A stretch of 64,000 nucleotides of DNA from Prolixibacteraceae bacterium (GTDB lineage: Bacteria > Bacteroidota > Bacteroidia > Bacteroidales > Prolixibacteraceae), in the NCBI GenBank assembly GCA_025355875.1, contig JANXYV010000028.1, positions 1 to 64,000 of the forward strand, written 5' to 3'. Below the pieces are notes generated by a model, which saw only the letters and a list, made by a program, of their open reading frames with translations, was not told where the DNA came from and searched no databases. Numbering within the stretch: the stretch's first letter is position 1; each line of letters starts with the position of its first letter. Position numbers and translations under genes: made by a program. This document shows positions 30,264 to 40,531 of this stretch, piece by piece.

Positions 30264-31619
30264 ATGGAAAAAAGCGAAAGCAAAAAGTTAATCCTGAAAA
30301 ACGGTTCGCGCATCGGCGTGGTCGGAGGCGGTCCTGCCGGAAGTTTTTTCACGTTTTTTGCCTTTGAACTTGCCCGGGAAAAAGGAATCAACATCCAGGT
30401 TGACATTTATGAAATCAAGAATTTCTCAAAAACCGGACAGGCAGGATGTAATCATTGTGGAGGAATTGTGGCCGAATCACTGGTTCATAGGTTGTCGGAA
30501 GACGGGATTATTCTTCCGCCTCAAATAGTCCGTCGCGGAATAGAATCGTATACGCTTCACGTCGAGCAGGGGTCCACCACCATCAATACCATTTTGCATG
30601 AGCACCCGATTGCCTCTATCTTTCGCGGAGCCGGACCATTGGGATCGACCGTAATAAATGCGCAAGGTTTTGATGGTTTCCTGCTGGATCTTTGCGAAAA
30701 AAAAGGCGCAGTTGTCTTTCGCGAAAAAGTGATCGATGCTGAAGTTCAGCCTGATGGGGTAACTCTGATCACGGGAAGTGCAAAACGGAAATACGATCTG
30801 GTCGTAGGTGCTGTAGGGCTTAATCCAAAATCGCTTCATATTTTTCAGAAATTGATTCCACCCTACAAACCACCTCGAACAACCAGAACCTATATTTCTG
30901 AATACTTTTTGGGCTCCGAAAACATCACGAAACACTTCGGAAATTCAATGCATGTGTTTCTGCTCAATTTGCCGGGAATAAAATTCGGAGCTTTAATTCC
31001 GAAGGGAGTTTATGTTACTTTGGTTTTGCTTGGTGAGGATGTAAATGCAGAAGCAGTCAACCGGTTTTTGAATTCAGAAACGGTGGCGAATTGCTTTCCG
31101 GCAGGTATCGCATTGAAAGATATTCCACCGTGCCAGTGTTTCCCGTCCATAAACATCGGAAGTGCAAGGAATCCCTATTCCGACCGGATTGTTTTAATTG
31201 GCGATTCAGCTTCATCAATACTTTACAAAAACGGGATTGGGGCAGCCTATATTACCGGCAAGGCCGCTGCTGTTGCCGCTTTCAGGGTTGGAATTTCAAA
31301 GTCAGATTTTAAGAAATCGTTCAGACCGGTTTGCGCTCAATTGAATACCGACAATGCCGTCGGCAAGCTGATTTATTCGGTTTCTTCAATTATTCAAAAA
31401 TCAATGTTTCTGAAGAAAGTGATGTTCAGAATAGTGGTCACGGAACAGAAAAAAGAAAGGGGAAAACTGGAAATGAGTTCGCTGTTGTGGGATACCTTCA
31501 CTGGCAGTGCACCATACAGGAACATTCTGAAACGGGCATTAAATCCGATACTTCTGGCAAATCTGTTCCGGAAAATTTTTACTGAATTCTTCACCCCGGA
31601 ACCTTTGAGCAAAGGATAG
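30264..31619 (+). CDS. Geranylgeranyl-reductase-like FAD-dependent oxidoreductase
   Basis: This flavoprotein resembles geranylgeranyl reductases and related polyprenyl or hydroxylase enzymes. The FAD-binding GVVGGGPAGS is at residues 18-27, the middle strand carries DLVVGAVGLN, and the second FAD motif is RIVLIGDSASS with a downstream helix typical of the family (GIGAAYITGKAAA). A CNHCGG cluster follows the first motif (about 60-65), and similar Cys pairs occur in this family. It has 451 residues. The C-terminal part contains hydrophobic helices (NPILLANLFRKIFTEFF) that may contact membrane. The substrate is unknown. An SRPBCC-like gene converges from the other side. Confidence 0.8.
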   Translation: MEKSESKKLILKNGSRIGVVGGGPAGSFFTFFAFELAREKGINIQVDIYEIKNFSKTGQAGCNHCGGIVAESLVHRLSEDGIILPPQIVRRGIESYTLHVEQGSTTINTILHEHPIASIFRGAGPLGSTVINAQGFDGFLLDLCEKKGAVVFREKVIDAEVQPDGVTLITGSAKRKYDLVVGAVGLNPKSLHIFQKLIPPYKPPRTTRTYISEYFLGSENITKHFGNSMHVFLLNLPGIKFGALIPKGVYVTLVLLGEDVNAEAVNRFLNSETVANCFPAGIALKDIPPCQCFPSINIGSARNPYSDRIVLIGDSASSILYKNGIGAAYITGKAAAVAAFRVGISKSDFKKSFRPVCAQLNTDNAVGKLIYSVSSIIQKSMFLKKVMFRIVVTEQKKERGKLEMSSLLWDTFTGSAPYRNILKRALNPILLANLFRKIFTEFFTPEPLSKG

Positions 31620-32594: not shown

Positions 32595-32626
32595 TTTGAT
32601 AAATCGGTTTTTTGAGCTTACTTTTG
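32595..32626 (+). promoter_or_regulatory. Promoter of the homocysteine/methionine operon
   Basis: TTTG (32595-32598), a 20-base spacer and TACTTTTG (32619-32626) fit the Bacteroidota promoter form. Transcription would start near 32633, about 30 bases before the SAM riboswitch. Confidence 0.7.
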
Positions 32627-32664
32627 CCTCATTATCAAATAATCCTCACAAATCCTGATTGTTT

Positions 32665-32766
32665 GATTATAAAGAAGAGCGGAGAGATCGGGCTCAGCGA
32701 AACTCTGGCAACCATCTGATCACAGAAACGGTGCCAATACCCGGCCGGAAACGGAATTATAATTAA
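32665..32766 (+). promoter_or_regulatory. SAM-I (S-box) riboswitch
   Basis: The leader contains the S-box core in order: AAGAGCGGAGAGATCGGGCT, then GAAACTCTGGCAACC, then GGTGCCAATACC, closed by an AT-rich P1 helix (ATTATAA at 32665-32671 pairing with TTATAAT near 32757). These are the conserved SAM-I elements (kink-turn, J3/4 and the GGCAACC and GGUGCCAA strands). It precedes homocysteine-forming genes, the normal target of this riboswitch. The leader-peptide ATG follows 10 bases after the P1 strand, so ligand-stabilised P1 could hide its ribosome site. Confidence 0.85.
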
Positions 32767-32775
32767 AACAAGAAA

Positions 32776-32841
32776 ATGAAGCAACACTCACCACTTTATC
32801 TCTTGAGTTTCATGTACTTCTCGAATATGTGCATGTGCTGA
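32776..32841 (+). CDS. Short leader peptide ending Met-Cys-Met-Cys
   Basis: A 21-codon frame directly after the riboswitch begins MKQHSPLYLLSF and ends N-M-C-M-C before TGA. Four Met codons (one the start) and two Cys codons in 21 residues, with the Met/Cys block at the very end, look like a sulfur-amino-acid-sensing leader rather than chance. It is 94 bases upstream of the DUF39 start. A coupled stem or terminator could not be identified by eye. Too short to prove by homology. Confidence 0.5.
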   Translation: MKQHSPLYLLSFMYFSNMCMC

Positions 32842-32935
32842 CGACACTGATAAAACGCAACAGAGTTTTTATTGGAAAGGCATGGTGTTGTTCTTCATTA
32901 ATAAATCACCATTAATCATTGGTAATTAACATGAT

Positions 32936-34101
32936 ATGAGTATTCAAAAAACTTACGAAGAAATCAACGAAAAAATACGGCATGGAGAGGCCGTGGTGCT
33001 AACTGCTGAAGAGGTTTCGCAAATGGCGCTTACCTGCTCTCCGGAAGAAATTGCCGAACGGGTGGATGTGGTGACCACGGCCACCTTTGGAGCCATGTGT
33101 TCTTCCGGAGCGATTGTCAATTTTGGGCATGCCAATCCGCCCATTCGGATGGAAAAAATACGATTGAATGGCGTCCCGGCCTACGAAGGTCTGGCTGCCG
33201 TTGATACATACATCGGCGCTACCGCCTGTGATCCGGAGAATCCGAAATACGGTGGTGCGCATGTCATTCAGGATTTGGTTGATGGCAAAGATATTGAACT
33301 GGAAGCATGGGGAAAAGGCACAGACTGTTATCCGCGGAAACATATCAAAACCATCATCAACAAGGAAACCGTGAACGAAATGATTCTGTTCAATCCGCGA
33401 AACGCCTACCAGAATTACAATGTGGCCGTGAATTCTACCTCACAGATGAAATACACCTATATGGGAAATCTGCTTCCGAATATGAGAAATGCCACGTATT
33501 CCACTTCCGGAGAATTAAGCCGCTGCTGAACGATCCGGAGATGAAAACTATCGGTATCGGCACCCGCATTTTTCTGGGCGGAACGCAGGGATTTGTTGTT
33601 TGGCCGGGTACGCAGTTTAACACGTCGAAACCGAAGAACGAGCATGGCGTCCCCATGAGCAACTCGGCAACGCTGGCCGTAATGGGCAATCTTAAGGAGA
33701 TGTCGTCGGAGTTTTTGCAGGCCGCCTATTACGAAAAATATGGTGTGAGCCTGTTTGTCGGTATCGGAATCCCCATTCCAGTGCTGAATGCTGACATTGC
33801 AAAATGCGTCTCGATCCGAAACGAGCAAATCCAAACCACGGTACTTGATTACGGCGTGGAAGGAACTCCAGCTCTGGGTCGGGTAACCTACGCTGAATTG
33901 CGATCAGGAGAAATTGAAGTTCAAGGCAAGAAAATTCGAACAGCTCCGGTTTCGAGCCTGAGCAAAGCGCGCAAAATTGCCGAAATCCTGAAACAATCGA
34001 TACTGGCAGGTGAGTTTGAAATCAGCAAACCAGTGCAAATGTTTCCGACCAATACTTCTCTAAAATCACTTAAAGAAATTAAAGGAGGGGATGAAAAATG
34101 A
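32936..34101 (+). pseudogene. DUF39 homocysteine-biosynthesis protein (aspartate-semialdehyde sulfurtransferase), one-base frameshift
   Basis: This is the COG1900 protein that, in methanogens (MA1821), converts aspartate semialdehyde and sulfide to homocysteine. The first part (32936 to about 33520) contains Cys55 in FGAMCSSGA and Cys131 in KGTDCYPRKH. The equivalent positions are those I recall as functionally important in MA1821. The frame then stops (GELSRC), while the next frame continues perfectly (PLLNDPEMKTIGIGTRIFLGG) to the end at 34101. Adding one C at 33519-33522 would restore a protein of about 388 residues. The second half keeps full family sequence, so the lesion is recent, a sequencing error, or a programmed shift. 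Its stop overlaps the next start (ATGA). Confidence 0.85.
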
Positions 34102-34517
34102 AAATGCAGAAAAAAAGATATGTATTAAAATTTCCACCTCAAAGTGGCGACCAGCCATTTAGCTATCATTTGGTAAAGGATTTTGATATCCGGATCAATA
34201 TTCTTCGTGCCGAAGTTTGGCCTGGGAAAACCGGTAGTCTGGTGCTTGAACTGGAAGGAACAACCACCAATCTGAAAAACGGAATCGCCTACTTGGAAGA
34301 AAATCAGGTAAGTTGCGAACCTTTGAACAAGAAAATTACCTGGGATCATGTTCGTTGTATCAGTTGCGGAAATTGCACTGCTGTCTGTTTTGCCGGAGCC
34401 CTGCAACTGGATCCTGGCAAATGGGAACTTCAGTTTGATCCTGAAAAGTGTATCGTTTGCGAACTCTGTGTTCCGGCCTGCCCGTTGAATTTGTTTAAGA
34501 TTGATTTCAGGGAATAA
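34098..34517 (+). CDS. NIL-domain ferredoxin, partner of the DUF39 sulfurtransferase
   Basis: The N-terminal NIL domain (about 5-75, RYVLKFPP... to ...YLEENQVSCE) is the small ligand-binding domain also found in MetN ABC transporters. It is followed by two [4Fe-4S] binding motifs with Cys at 87, 90, 93, 97 and 118, 121, 124, 128. In methanogens the equivalent (MA1822) is required with the DUF39 protein for homocysteine formation from sulfide and probably supplies electrons. It has 139 residues. A strong ribosome site (AGGAGGGG) lies seven bases before ATG, and the start overlaps the DUF39 stop. Confidence 0.9.
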   Translation: MKMQKKRYVLKFPPQSGDQPFSYHLVKDFDIRINILRAEVWPGKTGSLVLELEGTTTNLKNGIAYLEENQVSCEPLNKKITWDHVRCISCGNCTAVCFAGALQLDPGKWELQFDPEKCIVCELCVPACPLNLFKIDFRE

Positions 34518-34530
34518 AGCCCCTCTAAAT

Positions 34531-34589
34531 CTCCCCGAAGGGGAGACTTGAAAAAAGCCGCATCCCCGACCCTTCTCCAAATGAGAAGG
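34531..34589. repeat. GC-rich palindromic repeats downstream of the ferredoxin gene
   Basis: CTCCCC-GAA-GGGGAG (34531-34545) and CCTTCTC-CAAAT-GAGAAGG (34571-34589) form two hairpins. The surrounding AGCCCCTCTAAATCTCCCC phrase resembles a dispersed repeat seen again at 34677 and 39184. They may limit read-through. Confidence 0.6.
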
Positions 34590-34676
34590 GAATTAGGGTA
34601 GTGAAGATTCTGAATGTCTCAACCTTAAAAAAGAAAAATTGACAGAACGAAATTCTTTGAATATCAGTTCAGAAAG

Positions 34677-34695
34677 CCCCCTCCTTCGGAGGGGG
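34677..34695. repeat. Perfect palindrome directly before the UPF0280 ATG
   Basis: CCCCCTCC-TTC-GGAGGGGG is an eight-pair stem with a three-base loop ending immediately before the ATG at 34696, where the ribosome site of that start should be. It belongs to the same repeat family as those at 34531 and 39184. Confidence 0.65.
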
Positions 34696-35442
34696 ATGGG
34701 GGAGGCCAGGCATTATCGTTCACAATTTTCTCCCAATCGATTTCGATCGCTTGTTGTGAATTACAAGGAAACCGATTTGTGGATTGGCGTGGATCCGGGT
34801 TCCTTTCAGGAGGAAATGAAGGAAATCGCGCTATCAAAAGTAATTGCTCTCCGGACAGAAATGGAAGCGTATTTGCTGAACGATCCGGAGTTTGGCCGGA
34901 CTTTCGCACCGCACCGGGCAGAACCGAATGCACCCGAGATTGTTAAGATTATGGCTGATGCCGCAAAACGTGCCGGAGTTGGACCGATGGCGGCTGTGGC
35001 CGGAGCATTTTCGGAAATGATAGGGCGACATTTGATGGAAAAATTTGAAATTCAGGAACTGGTGGTTGAAAATGGTGGTGATATTTTTCTGAAGATCAAG
35101 CAGAATTTACTGATGTCGGTTTATGCCGGAAATTCACCTTTGTCGGAGAAGATCGGCATCGATATTTTGGCATCCCAATCGCCGCTCGGAGTTTGTACTT
35201 CAGCCGGAACGGTTGGACCATCAGTCAGTTTAGGGAAAACGGATGCGACCATGATTGTTTGCCGGAATACTGCTTTGGCTGATGCACTGGCTACCACGTT
35301 TGGTAATCTGGTTCAGACTCCGGAAGATATTCAACGGTTGACCCAACAAACAGAGCGGTTTCCGGAGATACTATCAGCAGTAATAATCTGCCGCGACAAA
35401 ATTGGGATTCGCGGAATGTTTGAAATGAAATTGATCAAATAG
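34696..35442 (+). CDS. UPF0280 (COG2122, ApbE-like) protein of the homocysteine pathway
   Basis: This family's methanogen member (MA1715) is needed for efficient sulfide use in homocysteine synthesis. The conserved N-terminal [20 protein letters not shown] starts near 34708. The core has [25 protein letters not shown] and [10 protein letters not shown], then [13 protein letters not shown] 34696 gives 248 residues. A TTG at 34639 would extend the frame upstream through the palindrome and gives 267 residues, so the start is uncertain. It follows the ferredoxin gene by about 180 bases and completes the three-gene set for the pathway. Confidence 0.85.
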
Positions 35443-35494
35443 AATAGCAAGTGAGCAGGTGACTCGAAGTCATCCGTTCAATGCACAAAAAAGT

Positions 35495-38400
35495 ATGATG
35501 ACAACTAAAAAAAACATACGACACGAACTCGAATCACAGGTGTTGGTACTCGACGGAGCCATGGGAACCATGATTCAGAAACACCGCCTGTCGGAAGAAG
35601 ATTTCCGGGGGATAATTTTTGCTGATTTTCAGTACGATCTGAAAGGCGATAACGATCTGCTTTCGGTCACTAAGCCTGAAATCATCCGGGAAATTCATGC
35701 GCAATTCCTGGAAGCAGGCGCTGATATCATTGAAACCAATACCTTCAACTCCACCAGCATCTCGCAGGCTGATTACCATCTCGAAGAATGGGTGTATCAG
35801 ATAAACCTGAAATCGGCCCAATTGGCTGTTGAAGTCGCCGCAGAATTCACGGCAAAAAATCCGGAGAAGCCGCGCTTTGTGGCCGGGGCAATCGGCCCGA
35901 TGAACAAAACGCTTTCACTTTCGCCTGATGTCAACGATCCCGGTTTTCGTTCGGTTTCTTTTGATGAGGTAAAATCCTCGTACCGCGAACAGGTGAAAGG
36001 CCTGCTTGACGGAGGTGTCGATTTGCTGCTCGTCGAAACCGTTTTCGACACGCTGAATGCCAAAGCTGCCCTGTTTGCCATTGAAGACGAACTCGAAGAA
36101 CGCGGAACGCGGCTTCCGGTCATGGTTTCCGGAACGATTACCGATGCCAGTGGCCGCACGCTTTCAGGACAAACCGTAGAGGCGTTCCTGACTTCGGTTT
36201 CGCACATTGATTTGCTTTCCATCGGGCTGAACTGCTCATTGGGAGCCAAAGATCTACGCCCCTATCTGGAAGAACTTTCCAAAAAGGCGCCATTTTATAT
36301 CAGCGCCCATCCGAATGCCGGTTTGCCCAACCAGTTTGGTGAATATGATGAAACCCCGGTCGAAATGGCGCACGAAGTTGGCTTTTTTCTCGACAATAAA
36401 TTTGTGAATATCATTGGCGGTTGCTGTGGAACAACGCCGGATCACATTCGTGAGCTGGCGAAAATTGCAGCTAAATCGGAACCTCACCACCGGCATAAAA
36501 AAGACAAACATACCATTTTCAGTGGTCTGGAGCCGGTAACACTGACTCAGGAGTCTGTGTTTATGAATATTGGTGAACGATGCAATGTGTCCGGTTCGCG
36601 CAAATTTGCCCGACTAATCCGCGAAGGAAAATACGAGGAAGCCATTGCCATTGCCCGCCAGCAGGTTGACGAAGGTGCTCAGGTCATCGACATTAACATG
36701 GACGATGCCATGCTTGATGCCAAAAAAGAAATGGTCACTTTCCTGAATTTATTAATGGCTGAACCTGACATAGCACGGGTTCCGATGATGATCGACTCCT
36801 CGAAGTGGGAAGTGATTGAAGCCGGCCTGAAATGTGTGCAGGGCAAGGCGATTGTGAATTCTATCAGTATGAAGGAAGGCGAAGATGTGTTCCGCCGACA
36901 AGCGCAACTTCTGAAACGGTATGGTGCGGCTGTGGTTGTGATGGCTTTCGACGAAATCGGTCAGGCTGATTCGTTTGAGCGACGGATTGAAATCTGTCAG
37001 CGCGCCTACAACATTCTGGTCAACGAAATTAATTTCCCGCCTCAGGATATCATTTTCGATTCGAATATTCTGATCATCGGTACCGGAATGGAGGAACATT
37101 TTAATTTCGCGGTTGACTTTATCAATGCCGTAAAATGGATCAAGAAGAATCTGAAGCACGCCAAAACGAGCGGCGGAGTGAGCAATGTGTCCTTCAGTTT
37201 CCGCGGAAACGACCAGGTGCGCGAAGCCATCCATTCGGTTTTCCTGTATCATGCCATCCGTGCCGGACTTGACATGGGTATCGTAAACCCCGGAATGTTG
37301 CAGATTTACGACGAAATTCCGAAAGATTTTCTGGAAAAAGTGGAGAATTTAGTCCTGAATAAAAATCCGAACGCCACCGAAGAATTGCTCGAATTCGCGC
37401 AGACCTTAAAAGCTCAGGATGCCAAAGAAGAACGGATTGACGAATGGCGCGAACTTCCGGTAGAAAAACGGCTGGAACACGCGCTGGTCAAAGGGTTATC
37501 CGATTTTATCGATATTGATCTGGCTGAAGCCCTGCCGAATTATTCACCGGTTCTAAATATCATCGAAGGGCCACTTATGGATGGAATGAATGTTGTTGGC
37601 GACCTGTTTGGCGCCGGAAAAATGTTCCTTCCGCAAGTGATCAAATCGGCCCGGGTGATGAAAAAAGCAGTGGCTTTTTTGCTTCCGTATATCGAAGCCG
37701 ATAAGGATCAGTTCGATACTACTGACAATCGAAAAGTGGTGCTGATGGCCACTGTAAAAGGCGACGTACACGATATTGGTAAAAATATTGTCGGCGTGGT
37801 GCTGGGCTGCAACAACTACCGGGTTATCGATCTGGGAGTGATGGTGCCTACCGAAAAAATTCTGGAAACGGCCATTCGCGAAAACGTTGACATTATTGGC
37901 CTGAGCGGGCTGATTACGCCTTCTCTTGAAATTATGGTTGATGTGGCTACCGAAATGGAACGCCGGGGAATGAATCTGCCGCTCTTGGTTGGCGGCGCCA
38001 CCACTTCGAAAATACATACGGCCGTAAAAATTGCGCCTCAGTATAAAAACACGGTGATCCATGTAAAAGACGCGTCGCGAGCGGTGAGCGTGGTTTCGAG
38101 CCTGATCTCCGGAAATGAAGATTTTCTGAAGGAGATTCGGGATGAATATCAGGAGATACGGACTTTCCACAGTCAGAAAAAGGCAAAGAAATATTTGCCC
38201 ATTGCTGAGGCCAGAGCCAATAAACTGAAGGTTGACTGGGAAAATACACCCATCTACAAACCAAATTTCATCGGAGTCAAAAAGCTGATTGACTATCCGA
38301 TTTCAGAACTCCGGAAATACATCGACTGGACGTTCTTCTTCTTTGTCTGGGAGCTGAAAGGGAAATTTCCGGATATCCTGAACGACGAACTTCAGGGCGA

Positions 38401-39172
38401 AGAAGCCCGGAAATTGTATGCTGAAGCTAACCGGATGCTCGATCGGATGGATCAGGAGAAAATGGTTCAGGCCAATGGCGTGTTCGGAATCTGGCCGGCG
38501 AATGCGGAAGGTGACGATATTGTTCTGTATGAAGATGAAAACAGGAAACAGGAAATAGGAAAGTTTTATCATCTCCGCCAACAGGAAGTTAAAAAAACCG
38601 GTTCGCCCAATTATTGTTTGTCTGATTTTATAGCTCCTGTTGAAAGTGGAATCACCGATTATTTTGGGGCATTTGCCGTTACAGGTGGTGTTGGCATTGA
38701 AAAATGGATGAAAGCATACCGCGATGATCATGACGATTACAATGCCATTTTGCTGGAAGCTTTGGCCGACAGGCTTTCCGAAGCCTTTGCAGAATTGCTT
38801 CACGAAAAAGTCCGCAAAGAATATTGGGGATACGTTCCGGAGGAAAAACTTTCGCTGGAAGAAATGTTCCATGTCGATTACCAGGGAATCCGCCCAGCTA
38901 TTGGCTATCCGGCCTGTCCGGAGCATCACGAGAAAGGAAATCTGTTTAAGATGCTTGGCGTCGAAGATATCGGCATGAGCCTGACCGAACATTTTGCCAT
39001 GTATCCAACCGCTTCGGTCAGCGGGCAGTATTTTGTCCATCCCGAATCGAAATATTTCAGCTTGGAGAAAGTTAGCAAGGAACAGATTGAAGATTATGCC
39101 CGCCGGAAAGGTGTTTCAGTAGAAATTATTGAACAGTTTATTCCTTCGAATTTGAATTATAAAGGAGTGTAG
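35495..39172 (+). CDS. metH: Cobalamin-dependent methionine synthase
   Basis: It transfers the methyl group of methyltetrahydrofolate to homocysteine through methylcobalamin. With the ATG at 35495 the protein has 1225 residues. The zinc ligands fall at Cys247, Cys310 and Cys311 and the cobalamin-ligating His at 759 (DVHDIG), the same numbers as in E. coli MetH, which supports this start. An upstream GTG would add 12 residues. The order is homocysteine domain (1-330), pterin domain (about 355-620), cap and B12-binding domains (650-890) and the SAM-binding activation domain (from about 900, with [12 protein letters not shown]). It follows the homocysteine-forming genes and precedes metF. Confidence 0.97.
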
Positions 39173-39577
39173 CCCTCTTCTAATTCCCCCGCAGGGGGAA
39201 AGCCTTGGTCAGTAGTTTGCAATTATCTTTGCCCTGAAGGGGCAAAATATCAATAGCCCGGGGTAAAGTGAGGAACGAACAGCACCCCGGGTTAACAAGG
39301 AAAGCAGGACAACCGTCCGCGCGAAAATCGAAAGCAAGGCGGATATCTCTTTTTGGACGGAATGGAGTTCGCCTTTGAAGGGAAATCATATTTACCTTCA
39401 AAATCTAAAATCAAGCTTTAGGATTTCGAGGTAATTGTCCGAAATTTGCCTGGAAAATGTGATCTGAAAATTAACATCCATGAAAAAATCAACAAAAACC
39501 GCCGGGAGTGGTTTCTTTTTAGGTTTGGCAGTTATGTTTGTACACGAAATGAATTTTCATTTTAAAGAAGCACGACC
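39173..39577. other. Repeat-rich spacer between metH and metF
   Basis: About 400 bases contain a cluster of GC-rich palindromes (39184-39395) and then AT-rich sequence with a possible 33-codon frame that runs into metF. I find no riboswitch or clear promoter here. metF could be transcribed from metH or from an unseen promoter. Confidence 0.45.
39184..39395. repeat. Cluster of palindromic repeats
   Basis: TTCCCCC-GCA-GGGGGAA (39184-39200) is followed by a GCCC/GGGC hairpin near 39230 and by an eight-pair stem CCCGGGGT/ACCCCGGG (39257-39291). The first resembles the repeats at 34531 and 34677. The composite looks like a dispersed Bacteroidota repeat element. Confidence 0.5.
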
Positions 39578-39581
39578 ATGA
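39480..39581 (+). CDS. Possible 33-residue peptide overlapping the metF start
   Basis: The frame starts MKKSTKTAGSGFFLGLAVMF and its TGA overlaps the metF ATG (ATGA), an arrangement seen in coupled genes. The hydrophobic centre could be a membrane or leader peptide. No homology is recognised and chance is possible. Confidence 0.25.
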   Translation: MKKSTKTAGSGFFLGLAVMFVHEMNFHFKEARP

Positions 39582-40531
39582 AAGTAATCGACATTATCAA
39601 CCAAAGCAATAAAACTGTTTTTTCGTTTGAGCTGTTGCCTCCGCTCAAGGGAAACGATGCCAGTAAAATATACCATACCATCGAAAATCTGATGGATTTC
39701 GATCCGAAGTACATCAACATTACCACGCACCGCGACGAAATGGTGTACATCGAACTTCAGGACGGACACATCGAAAAGCGTATTGTTCGCAAGCGTCCCG
39801 GAACGGTAGCTATTGCGGCCAGCATTCAGCACAAATTCGGCATTCCGGTAATTCCGCACATTTTGTGTGGTGGTTTTTCGAAAAGCGAAACCGAGCATGT
39901 GCTTATTGACCTTGATTTTATGGGCATTAAAAATGTGCTTGCTTTGCGAGGCGACGGAAGCAAGGGTGAACATGTGTTCAGACCTGATCCCAGCGGACAT
40001 GCCAATGCGAATGAATTGGTTGAGCAAATCGTCAATTTGAGAAAGGGCAAGTACCTGGAAGCTGACTTAAAGAATACACATCCGATGGATTTTTGCATCG
40101 GAGTGGCTGGTTATCCGGAGAAGCATTTTGAAGCACCAAATGCCGAAACCGACCTTCAGTATTTAAAGCAAAAAGTGGATGCAGGTGCCGACTACGTTGT
40201 CACCCAGATGTTTTTCGACAATCAGAAATACTATGATTTTGTAGCCAAATGCCGCGCTGCAGGAATTCAGGTTCCTATCATTCCCGGAATCAAACCTATC
40301 AATCTGAAAAATCAACTGACTGTTTTGCCAAAGTTGTTCAGCATCGATATTCCAAAAGAACTGGCTATTGAATTGGCCAGGTGCAAAACCGACGACGATG
40401 CCAAAGTGGTAGGTACCGAATGGGCCATTCAGCAGTCGAAAGATCTGGTCGCTCAGCAGGTCCCGAGCTTACACATATACACCTATGGAGTTTCTGACAA
40501 TACCCGGAAAATTGTGGAGGCGGTGTTTTAG
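39578..40531 (+). CDS. metF: 5,10-methylenetetrahydrofolate reductase
   Basis: It reduces methylenetetrahydrofolate to methyltetrahydrofolate, the methyl donor for MetH. The start contains TVFSFELLPPLKG with the conserved Glu of the active site, followed by ITTHRDE, NVLALRGDGSKG, the IGVAGYPEKHFEAP flavin region and the barrel-closing TQMFFDNQKYYDF and PIIPGIKPI. At 317 residues it is the single-domain bacterial type. Its place at the end of the homocysteine/metH group joins the whole de novo methionine route. Confidence 0.95.
   Translation: MKVIDIINQSNKTVFSFELLPPLKGNDASKIYHTIENLMDFDPKYINITTHRDEMVYIELQDGHIEKRIVRKRPGTVAIAASIQHKFGIPVIPHILCGGFSKSETEHVLIDLDFMGIKNVLALRGDGSKGEHVFRPDPSGHANANELVEQIVNLRKGKYLEADLKNTHPMDFCIGVAGYPEKHFEAPNAETDLQYLKQKVDAGADYVVTQMFFDNQKYYDFVAKCRAAGIQVPIIPGIKPINLKNQLTVLPKLFSIDIPKELAIELARCKTDDDAKVVGTEWAIQQSKDLVAQQVPSLHIYTYGVSDNTRKIVEAVF

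Follow-up and report, generated by a model that had tools for sequence, protein, structure and literature searches.

Does a bacterium with the DUF39 genes for making homocysteine from aspartate semialdehyde and sulfide bypass homoserine activation, or does it hold two routes to homocysteine, and how would these be controlled? The question is raised by a methionine gene cluster in the first 64,000 nucleotides of contig JANXYV010000028.1 of a Prolixibacteraceae bacterium (GCA_025355875.1). This whole stretch, hereafter the window, is part of contig C44 in a draft genome of 5.18 Mb, 230 contigs and 97.9% completeness. On the (+) strand, which carries every cluster feature given below, a promoter-like motif is followed in turn by an S-adenosylmethionine (SAM)-I riboswitch, a short leader open reading frame (ORF), DUF39/HcyBio, NIL-ferredoxin, UPF0280, metH, and metF. 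The sulfide route itself is known from methanogens and Desulfovibrio (PMC5764234, PMC12068725). Our reading, which we rate at somewhat better than an even bet, is that the cluster is an operon of the L-aspartate semialdehyde sulfurtransferase type under two-stage control by the riboswitch and the leader ORF, and that it stands beside an intact classical aspartokinase-metY-metA route. The sequence directly shows the gene content, the aptamer, the coding selection on the leader ORF, the narrow gap between aptamer and AUG, and the two routes in one genome; the enzyme activity, the direction and order of control, and the sharing of one transcript by metH and metF are what we infer.

The SAM-I aptamer and its leader ORF

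A first-pass annotation, made from the letters alone, had placed an S-box leader ahead of the module. The aptamer is indeed complete (positions 32664 to 32765), matching RF00162 over model positions 1 to 108 with 67.5 bits (gathering score, 44.4). That annotation overlooked the short ORF between the aptamer and DUF39. This leader ORF (MKQHSPLYLLSFMYFSNMCMC, 32776 to 32841, 21 codons and a stop) starts 10 bases past the aptamer and ends 94 bases before DUF39. All ten genus genomes that have the aptamer and DUF39 on one contig carry an ORF of the same length, 21 codons, at +7 to +11 from the aptamer, and their peptides end in LS[FV]M[YH]F[SA][NK][MG]CM[CR], which reads N-M-C-M-C at the end of our own peptide. 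Across the genus, the ratio of nonsynonymous to synonymous differences (pN/pS) is 0.26 in frame, whereas the two alternative frames give 0.74 and 1.96; the in-frame value falls to 0.13 over codons 10 to 21 and stands at 0.49 over codons 2 to 9. The stop may be TGA, TAA, or TAG, although its position is fixed, and nucleotide conservation, as judged by eye, ends with it. By these measures, the leader ORF is under coding selection in the genus.

Across the order, we counted as a leader any ATG ORF of 12 to 50 codons that starts at +5 to +20 and has at least two Met within its last 12 codons. Such an ORF stands at 33 of 49 SAM-I loci of the order, whereas none was found at 49 loci taken from elsewhere in the phylum (other orders and classes), and dinucleotide shuffles gave a mean of 0.22 and a maximum of 2 in 300 rounds. 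When the Met condition was lifted, the counts were 38/49 in the order and 8/49 elsewhere (shuffle means, 7.3 and 5.4). A fiftieth locus was dropped from each set, G017 in the order for lying at a contig end and G232 outside it for its unclear orientation. "Order" here means the grouping used by the genome search; NCBI assigns Prolixibacteraceae to Marinilabiliales and Odoribacteraceae to Bacteroidales.

It is very improbable that the ORF is a product of chance and that an RNA structure downstream of the aptamer is what has been conserved. The ORF does lie within a leader that bears a functional RNA, and the leader as a whole folds somewhat more stably than shuffled sequences do (z -1.74). However, such a structure has to be set against the frame-specific pN/pS, the variable stop codons, the in-frame length differences between genera, and the absence of any Met-rich counterpart from the 49 loci of other orders and classes.

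The position of the ORF is as regular as its frame. In 41 of the 49 in-order loci, an ORF of 12 codons or more starts with an AUG at +7 to +19, and 38 of these are leader ORFs. The other three (G066, G025, and G104a) have no leader ORF, and the AUG of the main gene takes its place at +7 to +12, as would be expected if the aptamer acts on the initiation of whichever ORF comes first. Three further genomes (G042, G056, and G047) seem, by eye, to have kept the leader ORF with a GTG or TTG start. A Met-rich leader also stands behind an aptamer core in Sunxiuqinia elliptica and Draconibacterium orientale, and the leaders of Odoribacter laneus and Butyricimonas synergistica end in ...MSMYMRCMR and ...MSMCMRCMR, respectively.

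The DUF39 cassette, its frameshift, and the classical route

The genes behind this leader match the expected families, and the first-pass description of a promoter, S-box leader, NIL-ferredoxin, UPF0280, metH, and metF on one strand agrees with our profile matches and coordinates. Its gene identities, and the link that it drew to the aspartate-semialdehyde/sulfide route of the methanogen work, hold. Its DUF39 assignment stands at the level of the family (PF01837), but not as a single intact gene. An N-terminal fragment that contains Cys55 and Cys131 (32936 to 33529; 263.1 bits, profile 1 to 181) is followed in another frame by a C-terminal part (33520 to 34101; 217.5 bits, profile 172 to 349). 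The ATGA overlap that it noted is present, although it joins the NIL-ferredoxin gene to the second DUF39 fragment rather than to a whole gene. This next gene (34098 to 34517) encodes a NIL domain and a 4Fe-4S ferredoxin (PF09383, 55 bits; Fer4 families) and resembles the MA1822 subunit. The UPF0280/COG2122 protein (34639 to 35442, start codon uncertain) is MA1715-like (NF003323/PRK04334, E 1.1e-75); its 254.2 bits against NF003323 fall slightly below the NCBIfam cut-off of 271, and a Pfam search with it gave no match. B12-dependent methionine synthase, metH, follows at 35495 to 39172 (NF007024, 2008.7 bits; TIGR02082, 1750.8 bits), and methylenetetrahydrofolate reductase, metF, at 39578 to 40531 (TIGR00676, 302.9 bits). 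The arrangement of these genes under the SAM-I leader is as first described, but because 405 bases separate the metH stop from the metF start, metF is only a putative member of the shared transcript. The promoter-like motif, TTTG-N20-TACTTTTG at 32595 to 32626, resembles the Bacteroidota promoter consensus, and the stretch aligns in eight genus relatives and two others.

We then asked how far this arrangement extends among 119 genomes, our own included, of which 36 have HcyBio. DUF39, NIL-ferredoxin, UPF0280, and metH stand in this order on one strand at 25 of the 36 HcyBio loci (ours among them), and at the other 11, at least one of the four genes is missing from the fetched stretch, several of which lie at contig ends. 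In 22 of the 36 genomes, a SAM-I match precedes HcyBio by no more than 1 kb, with contig breaks at the HcyBio locus in three (G017, G041, and G058); the joining of a bacterial riboswitch to this module, as the first-pass annotation proposed, is thus a conserved arrangement. Within the genus, SAM-I was found in exactly 11 of 23 genomes, the same 11 that have HcyBio, although the strict filters may miss weak matches. It stands just upstream of DUF39 in ten of them, and in G017, where the contig breaks, it was found terminally on a different contig. A protein-query scan of bacterial and archaeal contigs, which favours close relatives, gave 387 candidate stretches, 339 of which encode a relative. 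The titles of the best 80 are, as far as can be judged, those of Bacteroidota. In 48 of these 80 named loci, a loose aptamer core lies at most 900 bases upstream of DUF39, and 35 of the 48 have a Met-rich leader ORF as well; Rfam confirmed SAM-I in 15 of the 20 loci searched. Many of the 80 loci belong to genomes already counted.

Both cysteines, Cys55 and Cys131, are present in 31/31 aligned DUF39 genes and are probably the counterparts of the published Cys54 and Cys131, MA1821 itself lying outside the alignment. The DUF39 protein of an intact relative (L212) spans HcyBio profile positions 1 to 349 and consists of the HcyBio domain only, with no CBS domain. In a metH tree, the cassette appears to be ancestral, and a count by eye puts the number of losses within the genus at about 4 to 6, some branches having a support of only 0.59 to 0.74; DUF39 seems to have been repeatedly lost. 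The tree was built without G001, G002, G003, G004, and G015, and it includes G014 and G017 as partial metH with stops masked as X. That the genus acquired the cassette recently is disfavoured, as outgroups and early branches of the tree carry it. Nine metH loci of genus members without HcyBio contain no DUF39, NIL-ferredoxin, or UPF0280 match (in two, the sequence available upstream is short), and outside the metH locus, these genomes were searched for HcyBio only. In another genus, G042, G056, and G067 (loci L084, L085, and L086) have SAM-I immediately ahead of UPF0280-metH-metF; their genomes gave no HcyBio match and these loci no NIL-ferredoxin match. This ties metH to the riboswitch, and UPF0280 may have a role without DUF39.

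The break in our own DUF39 gene could mean that the module is failing or that the assembly is wrong. When the gene was aligned with those of 30 relatives, the sole internal gap was one base after 33519 (33519/33520), and that base is present in 30/30 relatives. The gap sits at a run of C, CC here and CCC in the nearest relative, which is 85.7% identical over the DUF39 gene. Against ten genus members, the ratio of nonsynonymous to synonymous substitution rates (dN/dS) is 0.014 to 0.027 for the first half and 0.004 to 0.034 for the second (one pair was not computable), values that indicate full constraint until very recently, or still. On this evidence, the break is either very recent or an assembly error.

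We regard the chances as even that an assembly or sequencing error is responsible, in which case DUF39 would be intact in the organism and both routes would work. The strong constraint on both halves and the fall of a single-base gap at a C run fit such an error, but the run is short, and short-read assemblies, if this is one, rarely err at so short a run. The competing explanation, to which we give somewhat less than an even chance, is that the frameshift is real, that DUF39 is a fresh pseudogene in a decaying module, and that metY-metA supplies homocysteine here. Neither the lack of relaxation in either DUF39 half nor the apparently intact NIL-ferredoxin, UPF0280, metH, riboswitch, and leader ORF fits well with decay, yet a match in two pieces and two frames across a one-base gap occurs, among the 36 HcyBio genomes, only in the present one. 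The intact classical route in the same genome and the losses on the metH tree also favour decay, as does a relative, G047, that stops within its HcyBio match owing to a late frame change. Given the frameshift, this organism may have lost the activity of the sulfide route only lately, and no second HcyBio gene was found in its genome. Expression of DUF39 as two pieces is conceivable, as an ATG in the frame of the second part (33541) lies 11 bases past the stop of the first fragment. Seven proteins of our genome (MetH, MetF, NIL-ferredoxin, UPF0280, GlgC, GlgA, and CysS) align in one piece over more than 80% of their length to those of relative G022.

Whatever the state of DUF39, the classical route is present. 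An aspartokinase-like gene, metY, and metA are consecutive on contig C171, and both metY (TIGR01326, 653.7 bits) and metA (NF047918, 490.1 bits) exceed their cut-offs. The best MetX match in the genome covers 33 positions at 19.9 bits; the MetX model cut-off of 500 was reached by no genome, controls included, and MetX was therefore judged by score. The first-pass suggestion that this bacterium bypasses metA/metX and metB/C/Y is refuted by these genes, which rule out a bypass of homoserine activation here. Its alternative, that both routes are carried, fits the gene content, with the caveat of the frameshifted DUF39. Among the 119 genomes, 81 have a metA-family match and 90 a metY match above cut-off; within the genus, each of the 11 genomes with HcyBio also has a match to the metA family. 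Outside the genus, G057 (98% complete) and G066 (87%) have HcyBio and no metA match; their metY-family matches are no better than E 5.6e-4, and their MetX-like match is short and weak. These two are candidates in which DUF39 may be the sole route to homocysteine. Downstream of our own metY-metA (G000:C171:39677-40570), there is a match resembling homocysteine methyltransferase, which contains a single in-frame TAA.

Two other observations concern the surroundings of the cluster. A palindrome, TCTCCCCGAAGGGGAGACTTGAAAA, lies between the NIL-ferredoxin and UPF0280 genes (34530 to 34554) as a single copy in the window; similar stretches occur in the leaders of G013 and G024, and such a repeat family may enter operons of this kind. 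Adjoining the cluster at 30264 to 31619 is a FAD-dependent geranylgeranyl-reductase-like gene whose match is below cut-off, and a gene of this type is also near metH in G010, G006, and G020, all without HcyBio.

The metY-metA leader and the proposed control

No SAM-I above threshold was found in the 18 kb around our own aspartokinase-metY-metA genes. Instead, a leader ORF (MNHYSKNSPFPIFLSSGSGDSMMSMMYMIMR, L011 6178-6273) lies upstream of this operon; it has 31 codons and 7 Met, 6 of them within the last 10, and ends in ...MMSMMYMIMR. Judged by eye, 39 of 40 relatives have a Met-rich leader at their metY loci, the exception (G027) being a short contig; the display favoured ORFs with at least 3 Met. 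A hairpin, UAGCCUU...RAGGC, begins at the stop codon of the leader. The corresponding pattern, ATGCGN-TAGCCTT-N8..34-RAGGC, has 45 matches in 44 of the 119 genomes (one in ours), compared with 3 matches for a reversed control. Of the 45 matches, 43 precede a metY-family match by about 2 kb or less. Each of the 37 matches that were folded gave -14 to -22 kcal/mol, with an inner stem that varies between genera, and in our own genus, the hairpin is conserved with no steady U-run after it (by eye).

One genome offers a candidate for a fuller attenuator. The metY leader of G039 contains 11 Met, and a strong terminator (-22.3 kcal/mol) stands 25 bases past it. A duplex of 16 pairs (13 contiguous, -20.8 kcal/mol) between the leader ORF and the terminator arm, which 11 of 500 shuffles equalled or exceeded in strength, could possibly serve as an antiterminator. 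Farther upstream at the same locus (L151), this metY leader is preceded by another Met-rich ORF and another hairpin that resembles a terminator, perhaps as tandem methionine attenuators. Rfam searches of 12 metY loci gave one SAM-II and two sub-threshold matches, none of them at the leader ORFs. The SAM-II element (G025, L143 448-508, 64 bits) is about 1.9 kb upstream of metY in a genome that has SAM-I before DUF39. In two genera (g7 and g12), a SAM-I aptamer precedes a Met-rich leader and hairpin of this kind, so that aptamer and leader look like separable modules.

How might the two elements work together at DUF39? The narrow spacing between aptamer and AUG suggests control of initiation, because the P1 stem of the aptamer would fall within the footprint of an initiating ribosome. 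With SAM bound, P1 would occupy this footprint, the leader ORF would go untranslated, and the operon would be off. When SAM is scarce, ribosomes would translate the leader ORF, and their slow passage over the Met-Cys-Met-Cys codons at its end would favour expression of DUF39 and the genes that follow. The last step, from stalling to DUF39, could involve Rho, re-initiation, or an opened start site. Aspartate semialdehyde and sulfide would then be converted to homocysteine by the DUF39, NIL-ferredoxin, and UPF0280 products, and MetH would methylate the homocysteine.

Several results weigh against this model. A consensus scan of the (+) strand from 32841 to 32936 found no intrinsic terminator between the leader ORF and DUF39, and genus members do not share a conserved spacer behind the ORF, which leaves the step from leader to DUF39 with no visible structure. 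At 16 of the 49 in-order SAM-I loci, no leader of the kind defined above was found, and the 8 loci of other orders and classes that do have an AUG ORF at +5 to +20 lack Met-rich ends. That definition was fixed after the data had been inspected, and related genomes are not independent. In 11 of the 36 HcyBio genomes, no SAM-I lies near HcyBio though upstream sequence is present, and a laxer Rfam search of 11 HcyBio loci without adjacent SAM-I (nine with upstream sequence and two, G017 and G058, at contig breaks) returned only a tRNA and a weak match overlapping a tRNA. Finally, DUF39 lacks one uninterrupted frame in the present assembly.

The missing terminator argues against a plain transcription attenuator, and the DUF39 leader was not assigned to the classical attenuator class, having the Met/Cys-codon ORF but no terminator/antiterminator. 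The fold of our own leader contains a long pairing of the leader ORF start with the stretch just before DUF39, which by eye looks species-specific. Somewhat short of an even probability, in our judgment, is a plain translational SAM-I switch, in which the leader is translated, for example for re-initiation at DUF39, and its Met/Cys codons have no sensing role. In some relatives, DUF39 does follow the aptamer directly and the leader ORF is absent, and ppe2 of Mycobacterium tuberculosis provides a case of a riboswitch with an upstream ORF whose translation the downstream gene needs (PMC11260477). However, it is the Met/Cys end that is the better-conserved part of the leader peptide, and Met-rich ends recur elsewhere in the order in leaders with no evident similarity.

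Known systems and what the arrangement would mean

The presence of this pathway in bacteria has already been published, and it is the control by SAM-I and a leader ORF that appears to be new. Mutant fitness data support a bacterial DUF39 route in Desulfovibrio vulgaris Miyazaki F (PMC5764234), and the first-pass label of a mostly archaeal pathway understates this published evidence. That strain shares the three gene families with our cluster, although its genes have widely separated locus numbers (DvMF_1464, 0262, and 0044) and no well-characterised classical route was apparent in it (PMC5764234); here, the genes form one cluster under SAM-I with an intact classical route alongside. The word "riboswitch" is absent from the main text of that paper. 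Methanosarcina acetivorans, with MA1821/MA1822 and MA1715, shares DUF39/COG1900, NIL-ferredoxin, the Cys54/Cys131 counterparts, and a UPF0280 partner, the family to which MA1715 has been assigned (PMC5764234). Its DUF39 subunit, for which Cys54 and Cys131 are named, differs in having a CBS domain that has been linked to control by SAM (PMC12068725), whereas the intact genus relative has HcyBio only. As the DUF39 of the genus lacks CBS, SAM sensing may have moved to the RNA.

The RNA elements also have partial precedents. Our aptamer is a full SAM-I (S-box) element above threshold, but no intrinsic terminator was found before DUF39, and in the order, an AUG (41/49) and usually a leader ORF (38/49) follow the aptamer closely. 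The B12 riboswitches of M. tuberculosis metE and ppe2 likewise pair a riboswitch with a translated short ORF, although their ligand and phylum are different and no amino-acid-rich end is described in the abstract of PMC11260477. At metA of Sinorhizobium meliloti, a SAM riboswitch acts at a distance on translation near an upstream AUG, but it is a SAM-II element whose AUG2 is in frame with AUG1, and no Met/Cys leader peptide is described in the abstract of PMC9373788. A SAM-II metA element has also been reported in the Bacteroides group (PMC1273637). Ribosome-mediated attenuators, with examples for histidine, cysteine, and phenylalanine (PMC2965389, PMC8632094), have a leader ORF rich in codons for the product, as our leaders do, and the metY hairpin starts at the leader stop. 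They differ in that Met is the apparent sensed residue here, in that SAM-I is combined with the leader in some genera, and in that the DUF39 leader shows no terminator. A transcript map of Bacteroides thetaiotaomicron mentions, in general terms, short ORFs that recall the leaders of attenuators (PMC7366714). Searches of open-licence PMC papers turned up, among the matches listed, neither a methionine leader peptide from Bacteroidota nor a SAM-I element followed by a leader of this kind.

Taken across the order, we tentatively suggest, at rather less than even confidence, a combined device in which SAM-I gates a Met/Cys leader peptide, so that expression is on only at low SAM together with ribosome stalling for Met/Cys, while metY-metA is under freestanding attenuators with a Met leader peptide. 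The two routes would then answer to different signals, SAM and Met/Cys for one and Met for the other, and an RNA sensor would replace the archaeal CBS domain. If this is true, two homocysteine routes are kept together under separate RNA controls. The losses, the possible sole-route genomes, and the loci with riboswitch and UPF0280 only would form a natural set for asking when the sulfide route pays, and because one genus keeps UPF0280 under SAM-I without DUF39, the function of UPF0280 becomes testable. Methionine leader peptides, alone or behind a riboswitch, would then be a control layer in a major bacterial phylum.

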